Shown here piece after piece: positions 19,727 through 64,000 of a stretch of DNA of 64,000 nt. Made by a program: the position numbers and the translations under genes. The DNA is from Bacteroidota bacterium (lineage in GTDB: Bacteria; Bacteroidota; Bacteroidia; UKL13-3), in the NCBI GenBank assembly GCA_040388375.1, contig JAZKBU010000005.1, positions 478,395 through 542,394 of the forward strand, given 5' to 3'. Below the pieces are notes generated by a model. That model was not told the DNA's origin, ran no database searches, and saw nothing but the letters and a program-made list of their open reading frames with translations. Each line of letters starts with the position of its first letter. Within the stretch, counting starts at the first letter, position 1.

Positions 19727-20737
19727 TTATAAGGAGATAGTATTGATTTGATTTTTGGGAATACCGAGTGATATGAGCATGGCTTGCCAATCGTTAAGGG
19801 CTGAATAATTTTCGCCCAATACCCAAATGATATTGGTTTTTTGAATGGCCTCTTTATTGAGTTTACCAAATTGTTTATTGTTTAATAACTCGTAGAATGT
19901 TGTTGGGCTTATAATACCTTCATCCATTTTTAAACTGGGGTTTATATCGTCTATAATTAAATAGTCAGTATTTCGCCAATTCCATAAATTGGTAATGTGT
20001 ATTTGTTCATTGCTTAACTCAGGTTCAAAAAACAGGTTGTATAGTTTTGTTGCTGAAGTATAAAGGGCTTTTTTATGTTTAATGGATTGCTCATTTGCAA
20101 TGGCAACACTTAAACTTGTTTTACCACTTTTATAAGCACCAAAAAGCAATAAGTGATTACCTTTTTGTGTATTATTTACAAAATCGCTAATGATATATTT
20201 TGTGTTATCGTCCAATTTGTTTTTCCATTGGCTTAACCGGAATTGAAAAGGGAATTTTGCTTCTTGCTGATACATTTTGGTGGTGTACCAATAGTAAGAT
20301 GGATAAGTTAAGGTGAAAAATATTGTTCCGATAATAATAAGCAATGTTTGGCTAAACTGAATGGTAATACCAGCAATAAATGCACCCATCATAAAAAAAC
20401 AAACATCGGTAGCGGTATCAAAAGCTACATTGGCTAAGTCGGGTTTAAAAATATATTCATTGGCATTTTTTAATAAAGGAGCTAGAAAATTATATGATTC
20501 GAAAGTGAGCCAAAGGAAACTCACTCCAATGGCTGAAAACAGGTTTAATTGACTGAATGTAAAATAATTTTTTAATATTTGATAGGCTAGGATGGTAGGA
20601 ATAAAACCCAGGGCTAAATGACCAAATTGGTTGGCTAGCCACGTATAGGTTAGTGTGATACCGCGGTAAGAGTCTTTACCAATTAAATCAAATTGTAACT
20701 GTTGCAATATGTATTTTGCCTGAATTAGTATCATCAT
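19727..20737 (-). CDS. Membrane-anchored P-loop NTPase of unknown function
   Basis: I do not recognise this 336-residue protein. Residues 40-150 contain about four predicted membrane helices (near 40-57, 65-82, 111-130 and 131-150). The soluble half carries a Walker A (GAYKSGKTS, 200-208), a Walker B (YLIIDDINP, 259-267) and a sensor-1-like strand (IIWVLGEN, 303-310), resembling DnaA/DnaC/IstB-type AAA+ ATPases. The AAA+ part is short (about 150 residues), with no obvious arginine finger. It lies about 100 bases upstream of the lepA start on the same strand and is divergent from the VOC gene. It could be a membrane-tethered helicase loader-like or regulatory ATPase, but this is inference. Confidence 0.6.
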   Translation of the reverse strand: MMILIQAKYILQQLQFDLIGKDSYRGITLTYTWLANQFGHLALGFIPTILAYQILKNYFTFSQLNLFSAIGVSFLWLTFESYNFLAPLLKNANEYIFKPDLANVAFDTATDVCFFMMGAFIAGITIQFSQTLLIIIGTIFFTLTYPSYYWYTTKMYQQEAKFPFQFRLSQWKNKLDDNTKYIISDFVNNTQKGNHLLLFGAYKSGKTSLSVAIANEQSIKHKKALYTSATKLYNLFFEPELSNEQIHITNLWNWRNTDYLIIDDINPSLKMDEGIISPTTFYELLNNKQFGKLNKEAIQKTNIIWVLGENYSALNDWQAMLISLGIPKNQINTISL

Positions 20738-21803: not shown

Positions 21804-22910
21804 TTAGTAGGCAAAAGCAAAAACAGCTTCTACATCTTTCAATTCAATATTGTTTACACCATCAGTAAGTCTGCATGTAAACTTAATTTTCATTTTAACT
21901 GTTTTTTGCCCGGTAGCATTGTTTTTGTAGTTGCTAATTTCATCTATAAAAAAGCCGGTAAATTGTTCTGTGTATTTAGATGAATAAGTAACACCATTTT
22001 TATCAGTATATTCTACCAGAACTTTGTCTAACTGCAGGGTATCGCGTACGGGAACTATATTGTACGAAAAGTTTGCACTACATTTGTTGGTAGCAGCAGT
22101 GGCTATGTTTTTACTTACTACAGTCGTATCGTTGGTGGCTTTATTAATGGCCAACAAATTGACTTGGTATACTCCTTCGGCTGCAAAAGCAGGCAATTCA
22201 AATATTTTTCCTTTAGGCTCTGAATTAATTTCGTTTAGGTATTTCCATATAAATTTATGGGTTGATGAATCCGCATTTAAAACTTCGCATTTGAACTTGT
22301 TACTACCCGTATTGGTATAGGTGTAATCAATATAATTATTCAGGTTGTTTCCGTTAATATAAATTGGATTGTCAATATCCGTAACACAACCTGTATAATC
22401 TACCTTTAACGAAATATTTTGTTTGCCTTCAGCGTTAAATATAAAATTAGGGCTTTCCTGTTTTGAACCAAAACCACCACCAAAATCCCAGGTATAATCG
22501 GGTGTTCCATCGCCTCTGCTTTGGTTGTTAAATATAACCCTGTAGCTCATAGGAGGTAATTTTTCATTGTAAAAAAGAAATGCTTTTCCTATTTTGTATA
22601 ATGAGTCGATAGACCAATTGCTATTGTTTCCTACCTGGTAATTTCTAAAAGTTATACTTAGTTTTTCGGTACAATTAGTGCAAGTTTTTGCAATGGTTCC
22701 TTTAAACTGTTTGATGTTTAAACTATCAACGGTGTTTTCGGTTTTCATCACCATATTATCATTACCGGCTTCAAACAATAAAGGTGAATTATTGGCACTT
22801 GCACTTACATAAAACTCGGCTTTTCCAATATAGTTTACAGGCTCTTCTACTGTTTTACAAGCGCTTGTAAGTATAGCAATACTGGCTATTATATATATTA
22901 TTTTTCGCAT
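21804..22910 (-). CDS. Lipoprotein with PKD-like domain
   Basis: This 368-residue protein starts with a lipoprotein signal (lipobox TSAC, Cys at about 18). A PKD-type block YTWDFGGGFG lies near residues 138-147, followed by NFIFNAEGKQNISLKV. The C-terminal half holds further beta-sandwich-like sequence. It is the third gene of the sigma-factor operon, five bases after the TM-barrel protein, so it is probably the surface or periplasmic partner of that system. I cannot assign a ligand. Confidence 0.7.
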   Translation of the reverse strand: MRKIIYIIASIAILTSACKTVEEPVNYIGKAEFYVSASANNSPLLFEAGNDNMVMKTENTVDSLNIKQFKGTIAKTCTNCTEKLSITFRNYQVGNNSNWSIDSLYKIGKAFLFYNEKLPPMSYRVIFNNQSRGDGTPDYTWDFGGGFGSKQESPNFIFNAEGKQNISLKVDYTGCVTDIDNPIYINGNNLNNYIDYTYTNTGSNKFKCEVLNADSSTHKFIWKYLNEINSEPKGKIFELPAFAAEGVYQVNLLAINKATNDTTVVSKNIATAATNKCSANFSYNIVPVRDTLQLDKVLVEYTDKNGVTYSSKYTEQFTGFFIDEISNYKNNATGQKTVKMKIKFTCRLTDGVNNIELKDVEAVFAFAY

Positions 22911-22915
22911 TGTTT

Positions 22916-24145
22916 TTATTTTAAAATATATTGAATTCCTAATTTCAATCCTTTGTTATAATCTGCTTTATTAGTATTAAAAGCTTCGTTTTTACTGATG
23001 TCGTTTAATCCATAAATATAACTTACTCCTAAAGCTATATTTTTAGTAAAGCGGTATTGATAATTTAAGCTAAGCTGCCAGTCAGTTTTATTTAATACAC
23101 TGCTATATCCACTTGCATTAACAGCGTTGGTAGTATTGTTTTCCAAGTTAACAGTTGTTATTTTATCGTTCGATTGAAGTAATTGTGCCATTTGAATACC
23201 TAAACCTAAACTGTGGTTTTTGTAAACGGGATACATGGCGTTTAAACCAATAATAGCATATTGAATAGATTGGTTGGTAATATTGGTTTGCTTAGTCTCT
23301 GAACTAAAATCGTATTGTTTGTTTATATACTCTCTGCTATCGGTATTTTGATTGATTTGCTCAAAATGCAGATTGGTATTGAACGATAGTTTACCAAAGT
23401 CTAAATACAAACGACCTCCAACAAAATAGCCAAGTGAGTTGCTTGCAAATGTATTATTGAAGCTATTTAAACCCACTTCAGCACTGGCATTGAATTGAGA
23501 AATGATACTGCTTCTTTTTATAGTTGGCTCCGGTTTGGCTAAGAAAGTATAGTTTTTGTTTTCAAAAGTTAAATCGGTAGGGGTAACTTGCAAGGTATTT
23601 ACTGCTTTTTGTGTTAAGTAGTTTTCTTCTTGCTCCGGTGCTGTTATTACTGATTCTTCTGTTAAAATATTATTGTTTTCAATAGTTGTATTAGCAGTTT
23701 GGGTAGCAATAGGACTTGGTTTTAATATATTGTTTTCTGCCAGTACATCATTGTTATTGTGCGTATTGGCGGCTATTACTGGTTGATTGGCTTCTTGCTG
23801 TTCGTTACCGTTATTTGTTGATGGATTAGCAGGATTGGTATTGCTTATTGCGGCTTGCGTATTTGTTTCAGGCACTATAACTGTATTGGGCAGTGTAGCT
23901 TCTTGTAAAGCAAGAGTAGCAGGTGTTGTTGTTTTGGTTTTATTGCTAACTAAGAACCATGACAGTAATCCAAGTAATGCAATTGTTGAAGCATAAAATA
24001 TTTGCTTGTTCCAAAAGGCACTTTTTTGAACTCTGCGTTGGGCTATCAACAAAGCTTCGGCATGCTCCCAATAAGCATCCTCGTAAGCAAATTCTTTGCT
24101 ATCAAGCTTGTTTTTAATTAAATTGTCTAAATCTTTATCCGTCAT
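22916..24145 (-). CDS. Presumed anti-sigma protein with TM helix, long linker and C-terminal barrel-like domain
   Basis: This 409-residue protein has a cytoplasmic N-terminus (1-48: MTDKDLDNLIKNKL, AYWEHAEALL) resembling Bacteroidota anti-sigma domains. One membrane helix (about 49-66) follows. Next comes a roughly 150-residue linker rich in Asn, Thr, Ala and Glu. The C-terminal region (about 217-409) has alternating aromatic and hydrophobic strands (FVGGRLYLDFGKLSFNTNL; YQYRFTKNIALGVSYIYGL) ending in a hydrophobic strand, as in outer-membrane barrels. It overlaps the sigma gene by four bases. That order matches sigma/anti-sigma pairs. The barrel and envelope-spanning arrangement is inferred. 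Confidence 0.65.
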   Translation of the reverse strand: MTDKDLDNLIKNKLDSKEFAYEDAYWEHAEALLIAQRRVQKSAFWNKQIFYASTIALLGLLSWFLVSNKTKTTTPATLALQEATLPNTVIVPETNTQAAISNTNPANPSTNNGNEQQEANQPVIAANTHNNNDVLAENNILKPSPIATQTANTTIENNNILTEESVITAPEQEENYLTQKAVNTLQVTPTDLTFENKNYTFLAKPEPTIKRSSIISQFNASAEVGLNSFNNTFASNSLGYFVGGRLYLDFGKLSFNTNLHFEQINQNTDSREYINKQYDFSSETKQTNITNQSIQYAIIGLNAMYPVYKNHSLGLGIQMAQLLQSNDKITTVNLENNTTNAVNASGYSSVLNKTDWQLSLNYQYRFTKNIALGVSYIYGLNDISKNEAFNTNKADYNKGLKLGIQYILK

Positions 24146-24720
24146 GCTAGTTTTTCCCTTTGTTTTAGTTGAGGAAATATTTCAACCAGTTTTCTTTTTA
24201 AAATTGTTCGTGCATTGTTTACATGCCATTTACTAGTACCTTCACTAATGCCTAATTTTTCTGCAATTTCTTTATGGTTATAACCTTCTATTGCAAATAA
24301 ATTAAATACCAATTTGCTCGATTCAGGCAACTGCTGTATATGAATATTTATATCATCGGCAGTTAACTTGGCTTCGGCTTCATTTAAATCAAACGGATGA
24401 AAATGCATATCTACATCTTCCGATGATTTGTCAATGAACAAAGCATTTTTTTTATTATTTACCCTAAACTCATCAATAATGGTATTAACCATAATTGTTT
24501 TTATCCAGGCCTCAAATGATTTGTTGACATCAAAGTGTTGCAGGTTGTTTAAAATTTTAAAGAACGCTTTATTTACTTGCTCAACAATATCATCCTTATT
24601 CTGGTAGTACTTGTAGCATACAGGCATTAATTTAGTAAAACAGAATTTATATAAAGCACTCTCGGCCTTACGATCCTGTTTAATACATAAATTAATAAGC
24701 TTTTGTAGCTCTTTGTCCAT
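24142..24720 (-). CDS. ECF-type RNA polymerase sigma factor
   Basis: This 192-residue sigma-70-family protein has region 2 at residues 20-90 (KAFFKILNNLQHFDVNKSFEAWI) and region 4 at about 125-180 (LPESSKLVFNLFAIEGYNHKEIAEKLGISEGTSKWHV). Between the two lies an Asp/His/Glu-containing linker (SEDVDMHFHPFDLNEAEAK). It is the first gene of a three-gene operon with the TM-barrel protein and the PKD lipoprotein, which presumably control its activity. Confidence 0.9.
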   Translation of the reverse strand: MDKELQKLINLCIKQDRKAESALYKFCFTKLMPVCYKYYQNKDDIVEQVNKAFFKILNNLQHFDVNKSFEAWIKTIMVNTIIDEFRVNNKKNALFIDKSSEDVDMHFHPFDLNEAEAKLTADDINIHIQQLPESSKLVFNLFAIEGYNHKEIAEKLGISEGTSKWHVNNARTILKRKLVEIFPQLKQREKLA

Positions 24721-24868
24721 TTAGGGGAAAATTTTATTCAATAATCGGTTAAATTTTGTATTTCAACCTACTTTACGATGCTATTTATGAATAGGTTGGG
24801 TGCTCATCTCAAATATTTTTATTGGTGTTCATCTATTTATTTTGATTATTGCAATAGCAAAAATACAA

Positions 24869-25660
24869 ATGAAAACGAAAGAAGAAATAGTAAACGATTG
24901 GTTACCACGTTACACAGGGGTGGAGTTGAAGAAGTTTGGTGAGTATATTTTATTAACCAATTTTATGAATTATGTAGAGTTTTTTGCAGAAAAATTCAAT
25001 GTACCTATTGATGGTAAGGATAAGCCTATGCAATCGGCTACGGCTGAAAATATTACCATTATAAACTTTGGAATGGGAAGCGCCATGGCAGCTACCGTTA
25101 TGGATTTATTAGGGGCTATACACCCAAAGGCATTATTGTTTTTAGGTAAGTGTGGCGGATTGAAAAAAGTAACTAAGTTGGGCGATTTAATTTTACCCAT
25201 TGCGGCCATAAGAGGCGAGGGTACCAGTAACGATTATATTATGCCTGAAATACCGGCCTTGCCTTCGTTCAGAATGCAAATGGCGGTTGCATCCAGCATT
25301 GTTAAACACAAGGTTGATTACTGGACTGGAACCGTTTATACAACTAACCGCAGGGTGTGGGAACACGATGAAGAATTTAAAGAAAAATTGCGCAAAACCC
25401 GTGCAATGGCTATAGATATGGAAACGGCTACCATTTTTGTGGTGGGTTTTGTAAACAGTATTCCAAAAGGAGCTTTGTTATTGGTAAGCGATAATCCAAT
25501 GACGCCTGACGGTGTTAAAACATCAAAAAGTGACACTGCTGTAACGGCTAAATATGTTAAAAAACATATAGAAATTGGTATTGATGCTTTGATTGAGTTA
25601 CGCGATTCAGGTGAATCGGTTAAGCATTTACGTTTTGAAGAGAAAAAAAAGCCCAATTAA
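24869..25660 (+). CDS. amn: AMP nucleosidase
   Basis: This 263-residue phosphorylase-superfamily enzyme corresponds to the short AMP nucleosidase of Bacteroidota, which splits AMP into adenine and ribose 5-phosphate. Signatures are INFGMGSAMAAT (about 68-79), LFLGKCGGLKK, and the catalytic/base region AMAIDMETATIF near 181-192 with LLVSDNPM downstream. I use the ATG at 24869 (MKTKEEIV), since the upstream extension to 24800 is hydrophobic and not part of the family. The C-terminal codons lie inside the terminator hairpin. Confidence 0.85.
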   Translation: MKTKEEIVNDWLPRYTGVELKKFGEYILLTNFMNYVEFFAEKFNVPIDGKDKPMQSATAENITIINFGMGSAMAATVMDLLGAIHPKALLFLGKCGGLKKVTKLGDLILPIAAIRGEGTSNDYIMPEIPALPSFRMQMAVASSIVKHKVDYWTGTVYTTNRRVWEHDEEFKEKLRKTRAMAIDMETATIFVVGFVNSIPKGALLLVSDNPMTPDGVKTSKSDTAVTAKYVKKHIEIGIDALIELRDSGESVKHLRFEEKKKPN

Positions 25661-63444: not shown

Positions 63445-64000
63445 TTAATTAATATCAAAAACTTTTCTTAACTCAATCATAGCATTCCGTATTCGCGACT
63501 TAACTGTACCCAATGGCATATTCAATTCTTTTGAAATTTCATCGTGGGTATAGCCTTCAAAATATACTTTATCTATCAATTGTCTGTGTTCCGGTCGCAG
63601 GTTCGAAACTATTTTTTTTAATCCAATCTGGTCAACCTTTGCCTGTACCTGGTATGAAGCATCAATGTTTACCAAGTTGTCATCAATACTTTGGTTTTGT
63701 GCTTGCTTATTGTATTGTTTCGAGCGTACTTCATCAATAGCTGAATTTCTGCAAACATTGAGCATCCACGTATATATTGAACCTTTTTCCCTACTATAAT
63801 TGTCTATGTTTTTCCAAATCTTTACAAAAGCTTCCTGTAAAACATCGTTGGCTATTTCTTCATTTTGCGTAATCCTGTTTATTACACCATAAAGTGCAGC
63901 CGAATAGTTATCGTATAAATAACTAAACGCTTCCCTGTTTTTTTCTTTCAGGGCACTAACAAGCAATTGCTCGTTTTTATATGGTTGATTATCTTTGATA
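63445..64000 (-). CDS. ECF sigma factor, 5' end beyond the window
   Basis: The frame runs off the right edge. The visible 185 residues show region 2 (EAFSYLYDNYSAALYGVINRITQ; DVLQEAFVKIWKNIDNYS) and region 4 (LRPEHRQLIDKVYFEGYTHDEISKELNMPLGTVKSRI). The apparent TTG start at 63966 is not needed: eleven further codons upstream continue the usual family N-terminus, so the true start lies outside. It forms a pair with the RskA-type anti-sigma factor. Confidence 0.9.
   Translation of the reverse strand, partial: IKDNQPYKNEQLLVSALKEKNREAFSYLYDNYSAALYGVINRITQNEEIANDVLQEAFVKIWKNIDNYSREKGSIYTWMLNVCRNSAIDEVRSKQYNKQAQNQSIDDNLVNIDASYQVQAKVDQIGLKKIVSNLRPEHRQLIDKVYFEGYTHDEISKELNMPLGTVKSRIRNAMIELRKVFDIN

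Follow-up and report, generated by a model that had tools for sequence, protein, structure and literature searches.

A probable Dma-type sigma factor operon of environmental Bacteroidota with an almost obligate PKD lipoprotein partner

Three minus-strand genes of the window (the whole 64,000-nucleotide stretch analysed here), overlapping or nearly abutting, encode an ECF sigma factor, a 409-residue protein and a PKD lipoprotein. In our judgement they probably constitute a cell-surface signalling operon of the Dma/Reo type, in which the 409-residue chain would serve as an envelope-spanning anti-sigma factor and the lipoprotein as a dedicated component of the module. The architecture itself is of a known kind, and the novelty of the operon lies in its lipoprotein partner and in an association with the type IX secretion system (T9SS); our partial coverage of the open-access literature gave no description of either a PKD lipoprotein partner or a T9SS-sorted neighbour of this sort.

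Results and Discussion

Operon layout, sigma factor and promoter candidate

The sigma factor gene (24142–24720, 192 aa) is followed on the same minus strand by the gene of the Dma-type (dual membrane-spanning) presumed anti-sigma factor (22916–24145, 409 aa; transmembrane helix, linker and barrel) and by that of the PKD-containing lipoprotein (21804–22910, 368 aa, with a lipobox cysteine at position 18 and a CxxC at 77–80), at exactly the coordinates of a preliminary description of this DNA. The 409-aa gene begins within the last 4 nt of the sigma gene (24142–24145), an overlap which suggests that the operon genes may be translationally coupled, and 5 nt separate the stop of the latter from the start of the lipoprotein. 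The initial ECF call was borne out by Sigma70_r2 and Sigma70_r4_2, both well above their Pfam cut-offs, as well as by Sigma70_ECF (Pfam) and TIGR02937 (NCBIfam), also above theirs. Orthologues of the sigma factor in the genus are 73–77% identical to it. Its score against TIGR02985 was 81, below the cut-off of 126.4, which gives no support for placing it in that expansion family of Bacteroides.

An ECF-type promoter candidate (CCAACC-N15-TCGTA) is found at 24774–24799 on the minus strand, with 53 nt between it and the start codon of the sigma gene. Each of the nine upstream regions compared within the genus retains both the AACC and the CGTA block, and a related motif, AACC-N15-17-CGTA/C, precedes 14 of 58 sigma genes of the class, versus 2% of random 400-nt pieces. 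This conservation suggests that the operon may be autoregulated from 24774–24799. The full pattern was of no use to delineate a genome-wide regulon, with 6 matches in the 4-Mb genome versus 5 for a backwards control; of the six, only the site of the operon itself lies clear of any ORF and a short distance ahead of a gene, and we therefore claim no wider regulon. Scans for sigma-70 promoters and terminators gave no more than the shuffle background. The divergent gene next to the operon (24800–25660, phosphorylase superfamily) has a listed GTG start that is probably wrong, given that its relatives start at the ATG at 24869 (MKTK...); with that start the intergenic region holding the sigma promoter candidate remains.

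Two other loci of the window deserve mention in their own right. At its end (63463–63966) there is a second ECF sigma gene followed by a 220-aa transmembrane protein, a presumed anti-sigma of another type that shows no sign of a barrel. At 19727–20737 a 336-aa protein combines N-terminal membrane helices with a C-terminal DnaA-like ATPase domain (PF00308, 25.2 bits versus a cut-off of 23), which makes it an unusual membrane-bound DnaA/DnaC-like ATPase.

Architecture of the presumed anti-sigma factor

The N-terminal part of the 409-residue protein (residues 1–44, 24014–24145, minus strand) is the presumed sigma-binding cytoplasmic domain. It aligns without gaps to the genus relatives, at 51% identity, and carries a D7/K13/W26 motif of which D7 and W26 are invariant and K13 nearly so among 12 diverse homologues. 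Residues 1–48 matched no named anti-sigma family in Pfam or NCBIfam; by analogy with characterized proteins of the same design they would be the part that keeps the ECF sigma factor of the operon in check. An inner-membrane helix is predicted next, at residues 49–66 (23948–24001, minus strand), the best hydropathy window of the protein (2.03), 46% identical to the genus relatives and preceded by a positively charged stretch (4 K/R versus 1 D/E in residues 29–50). A similarly placed hydrophobic segment is present in nearly all of 59 homologues.

Residues 67–214 (23504–23947, minus strand) would form a periplasmic tether of low complexity, 148 residues long and composed to 71% of N, T, P, S, Q, E and A, with a predicted confidence (pLDDT) below 50 throughout and an identity to the genus relatives of 20%. 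Across 58 homologues of the class the linker measures 143–361 aa (median 195), and by simple arithmetic (0.36 nm per residue) even the shortest would reach about 50 nm when fully extended, which exceeds the usual periplasm. The small cytoplasmic domain, the single helix at about 49–66 and the roughly 150-residue low-complexity linker of the preliminary description were thus recovered by hydropathy, by composition and by the AlphaFold model, in which a helix covers residues 23–69.

The remainder of the chain (residues 218–409, 22919–23494, minus strand) is a predicted C-terminal outer-membrane beta-barrel. The AlphaFold model, computed from a 10-row alignment of the window protein and nine relatives, has helices at 3–15 and 23–69, disorder at 67–214 and eight strands between 218 and 408. 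The barrel is for the most part modelled with good confidence (block pLDDT 62–90, mostly 73–90), the low whole-chain mean of 57.7 being due to the disordered third of the chain. Residues 215–409 match OmpA, OprF, OmpW, NspA and OmpX in Foldseek and VIA-align comparisons, with VIA-align Z scores against solved eight-stranded outer-membrane barrels of 16.5 for OprF, 16.4 for OmpA and about 15.6 for OmpW, and PF13568 scores 31.7 bits against a cut-off of 27. By sequence, we found no solved relatives of the 409-aa protein. Short turns at 251–252, 309–310 and 366–369 alternate with longer loops, and as we read the model both barrel ends are on the same side, so that entry of the tether from the periplasm fits.

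A barrel had been proposed earlier from the sequence pattern, with structure prediction suggested as a check; this has now returned the standard eight-stranded outer-membrane type, and a soluble C-terminal beta-sandwich is rejected. Neither is the overall pattern due to chance, since identity to the genus relatives is 51% for the N-terminus and 60% for the barrel, but falls to 20% over the linker between them.

Distribution of the architecture

The 409-aa architecture is kept in all ten genomes of the genus, and the protein was found in 18 of 64 genomes of the family, genus members included. A single-sequence scan of public contigs yielded no relative; a profile scan then gave nine, all in metagenome-assembled Bacteroidota genomes. 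At the level of the class, Dma-type proteins were detected in 203 of 395 genomes at E ≤ 0.001, a figure that includes partial and barrel-only matches. The search for the same fused architecture in other Bacteroidota that had been proposed at the outset succeeded, with presence across the genus and the complete triad of genes in 16 families. The genome of the window itself has a paralogous triad on contig 3 (L002, L173).

Some relatives depart from the basic plan. A paralogous Dma-type clade (L002, L012, L014) has a CxxC (CDTC) at the junction of linker and barrel, which neither the window protein nor L015 (WDTS) has; together with C77–C80 of the lipoprotein it suggests that part of the family may sense metals or redox state. 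On contig C6 of the same genome (L051:463–2145, G000), a sigma-linked protein of 560 aa displays a doubled N-terminal segment with two W motifs and a transmembrane helix at 80–98. Neither this protein (PF13568 at 23.3 bits, below the cut-off) nor a further candidate of the same genome, of 460 aa (no PF13568 match), was counted as an established barrel protein.

Relationship to known systems

In classical FecIR-type signalling an ECF sigma factor, a FecR-like anti-sigma and a TonB receptor form a three-protein relay. There too a signal at the outer membrane reaches an ECF sigma factor across two membranes, but here one chain would carry both the cytoplasmic and the outer-membrane parts, and the operon has no TonB receptor. 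Much closer is an anti-sigma factor reported from Phocaeicola vulgatus in 2022, with a predicted course across the periplasm and a barrel in the outer membrane at its C-terminal end. When it is lost, a protective sigma factor is set free, which is itself 33-fold upregulated on exposure to toxin (PMC9308784, PMC13114119). The EcfO–Reo system of Bacteroides fragilis and P. vulgatus, described in 2026, likewise has an anti-sigma with a C-terminal barrel that is predicted to cross periplasm and outer membrane; it is said to span all five compartments and to be linked to NigD surface lipoproteins, with Reo as the proposed sensor of outer-membrane stress (PMC9308784, PMC13114119). In Bacteroides thetaiotaomicron, Dma1 and Dma2 act as repressors of their ECF sigma factors (Pardue et al. 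2024 PNAS, as summarized in a citing paper). Compared by described architecture, they share with the window protein the N-terminal cytoplasmic domain, the one transmembrane helix, the long disordered tether, the barrel and the adjacent ECF sigma, and Dma2 also belongs to a three-gene operon.

Given these precedents, a barrel-bearing anti-sigma is rejected as something wholly new. The preliminary idea of one chain connecting the outer membrane to the sigma factor gains support from the predicted helix, tether and barrel; the design has precedents, having already been reported in P. vulgatus and in Dma1/Dma2. The differences lie elsewhere. The third gene here codes for a PKD lipoprotein that has no match to DUF4943 or NigD, several related operons adjoin a T9SS-sorted secreted protein, and the lineage consists of environmental Bacteroidota genomes from metagenomes, not gut Bacteroidales. 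In EcfO–Reo, again compared by description, surface lipoproteins are also tied to the system, but the NigD genes are members of the regulon, whereas the lipoprotein gene here is an almost invariant third gene.

Might this simply be an ordinary operon of unrelated membrane proteins, with the 409-residue protein an outer-membrane barrel that retains an uncleaved N-terminal anchor and does not bind the sigma factor? The N-terminus, with no curated family match, would fit such a view. Yet a sigma gene is directly upstream of the Dma-type gene throughout the genus and the class loci examined, D7, K13 and W26 are conserved, and anti-sigma function is proven for proteins of the same architecture (P. 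vulgatus, Dma). We regard this explanation as highly improbable.

An almost obligate lipoprotein partner

The 368-aa product of the third gene carries a lipobox cysteine, C18, for lipidation. Its PKD_4 score is 26.6 bits, just below the cut-off of 27, and the same model matched all 11 family members scanned (best E 9.5e-18). C77 and C80 are kept in nearly all of 11 diverse aligned lipoproteins, and no Pfam match to DUF4943 or NigD was found. The AlphaFold model (mean pLDDT 56) was too poor for its fold to be searched.

A profile search of the 395 class genomes located full-length members of the lipoprotein family in about 75 places. Profiles of the sigma, Dma and lipoprotein families were run over every ORF in 60 regions. 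A full-size lipoprotein gene was present in 57 loci; in 56 of these a Dma-type gene is directly upstream, and in 55 there is a recognised sigma gene too, the exceptions being L171 (neither Dma nor sigma) and L156 (no called sigma). The 57 loci span 16 family-level groups of the class and are not independent, several groups contributing many genomes each. As the regions were picked by lipoprotein match, the count shows that the lipoproteins adjoin Dma genes, not that every Dma gene has one, and Dma genes devoid of a lipoprotein do occur (L019, L180). The PKD lipoprotein is an almost obligate partner of the Dma-type gene.

What this partnership means can be read in more than one way. Assembly of the barrel might itself be the signal: damage to BAM or the outer membrane would leave the barrel uninserted, the tether would be degraded, the transmembrane helix cleaved and the sigma factor freed, with the lipoprotein not a sensor but only a product of the regulon that repairs or coats the surface. 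In P. vulgatus a pair of the same type is induced by a toxin directed at the outer membrane, the response overlaps that to a BamA inhibitor, envelope stress is proposed as the signal, and the NigD lipoproteins are regulon products (PMC9308784, PMC13114119), all of which agrees with this scenario, as do the Dma genes that have no lipoprotein. But a mere output would not be expected to follow a Dma-type gene so regularly, in 56 of 57 loci spread over 16 families, and we give this scenario somewhat less than an even chance.

The location of the lipoprotein bears on the same question. The surface-export signal of Bacteroidota lipoproteins (LES) is K-(D/E)2 or Q-A-(D/E)2 just past the lipidated cysteine (Lauber et al.). 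In seven of nine genus relatives the sequence after this cysteine (CNTKEEP, CKTKEDP or CKVKEDP) fits K-(D/E)2, while CKTNEDP and CKVKQDP in the remaining ones do not; the window lipoprotein (CKTVEEP) is a partial fit, without the lysine. From these motifs the lipoprotein would probably be exposed at the surface. Its earlier proposed role as the outer-surface sensor is plausible, because it is almost obligate and most genus relatives have a surface-export-like signal.

T9SS-sorted proteins beside the triads

Large genes on the strand of the triad and no more than 700 nt away from it were listed, and their C-terminal 110 residues scanned. The T9SS type-A sorting domain TIGR04183 was present in 33 of 47 such neighbours, which places a large T9SS-sorted secreted protein beside the triad in about 33 of the 57 loci, versus 7 of 50 other large genes of the same regions, a control set that includes opposite-strand genes (Fisher p = 1.3e-8, a value that overstates independence, as loci within a family are related). 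Neither the window's own operon nor those of its genus have a T9SS neighbour, so the link rests on relatives, although the paralogous triad on contig 3 of the same genome does have one.

A surface protein and an ECF sigma factor are coupled elsewhere through T9SS: in Porphyromonas gingivalis the T9SS-CTD protein PorA feeds the ECF sigma pathway PorXY–SigP (PMC7712824). The likeness lies in the coupling of an ECF sigma to a T9SS-sorted surface protein, and the difference in that a two-component system is used there, versus a tethered anti-sigma here. With this precedent one may suppose that ligand and client of the system are the lipoprotein and, in loci that have one, the T9SS-sorted neighbour, so that the barrel would read the delivery of surface proteins and the sigma factor adjust their supply. 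The almost obligate lipoprotein, the neighbour enrichment and the T9SS sorting domain that ends a companion class of presumed anti-sigma factors (see below) all speak for this. Against it, the genus of the window has no T9SS neighbour, gene order is no proof of physical contact, and T9SS cargo is abundant in the genome (144 TIGR04183 matches). We consider it a minority possibility. In a similar vein, we suggest only tentatively that the PKD lipoprotein and, in most lineages, the T9SS-sorted protein are dedicated outer-surface signal partners which would define a distinct, surface-protein-surveillance branch of the Dma systems.

A companion class with a T9SS type-B sorting domain

The genome of the window also has, on its contig 19 (L217:1866–9392, G000:C19), an ECF sigma gene with a presumed anti-sigma factor of 296 aa encoded after it. 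This protein has a short N-terminus, a transmembrane helix and a linker of about 150 residues, and it ends in CHU_C, a T9SS type-B sorting domain (52.7 bits, cut-off 27). Further loci of this class are L187–L215 and L234–L247. CHU_C was found in all 18 full-length homologues scanned, and 45 of 57 loci, a set in which some genomes are represented by duplicates, have a sigma gene directly upstream, the rest being mostly large CHU_C proteins or truncated ORFs. Downstream there is a very large CHU_C protein, 1992 aa in this genome. The class is conserved family-wide, with full-length members in several other families of the class, and we found no report of it in the open-access literature, which was partially covered. 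Such a protein could tie anti-sigma control to the type IX secretion system. A shared N-terminal domain of Dma-type and CHU_C proteins was considered and not retained: the hhalign probability was 17%, with the D and W positions aligned, and on this weakly positive profile match we make no claim that the sigma-binding parts share an ancestor.

A model of signalling and its implications

For the Dma/Reo-type operon that we favour, we propose the following course of events. Residues 49–66 would anchor the 409-aa protein in the inner membrane, the disordered tether would cross the periplasm and the predicted eight-stranded barrel would sit in the outer membrane, while cytoplasmic residues 1–48 would keep the ECF sigma inactive, as in the Dma/Reo systems. 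The trigger would come at the outer membrane, either as damage to the barrel or the envelope or as a change in the PKD lipoprotein or its ligand, the lipoprotein most likely being the barrel's partner on the surface side. The sigma factor would then be released, probably via cleavage of the tether or of the transmembrane helix, and, judging from the conservation of 24774–24799, would transcribe its own operon from there to yield more anti-sigma and lipoprotein. In most lineages outside the genus, the T9SS-sorted protein beside the triad would be a likely client or output.

The partner lipoprotein, by its presence next to a Dma-type gene in nearly every locus where it is found, is a specific candidate for the surface-side component of Dma/Reo-type sensing. 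Through the T9SS-sorted neighbours and the companion class with its T9SS domain, sigma control across the envelope is connected with type IX secretion. If the tentative reading of a surface-protein-surveillance branch is true, then, taken together with the CHU_C class, single tethered chains would be the means by which Bacteroidota couple sigma factors both to the outer membrane and to type IX secretion.
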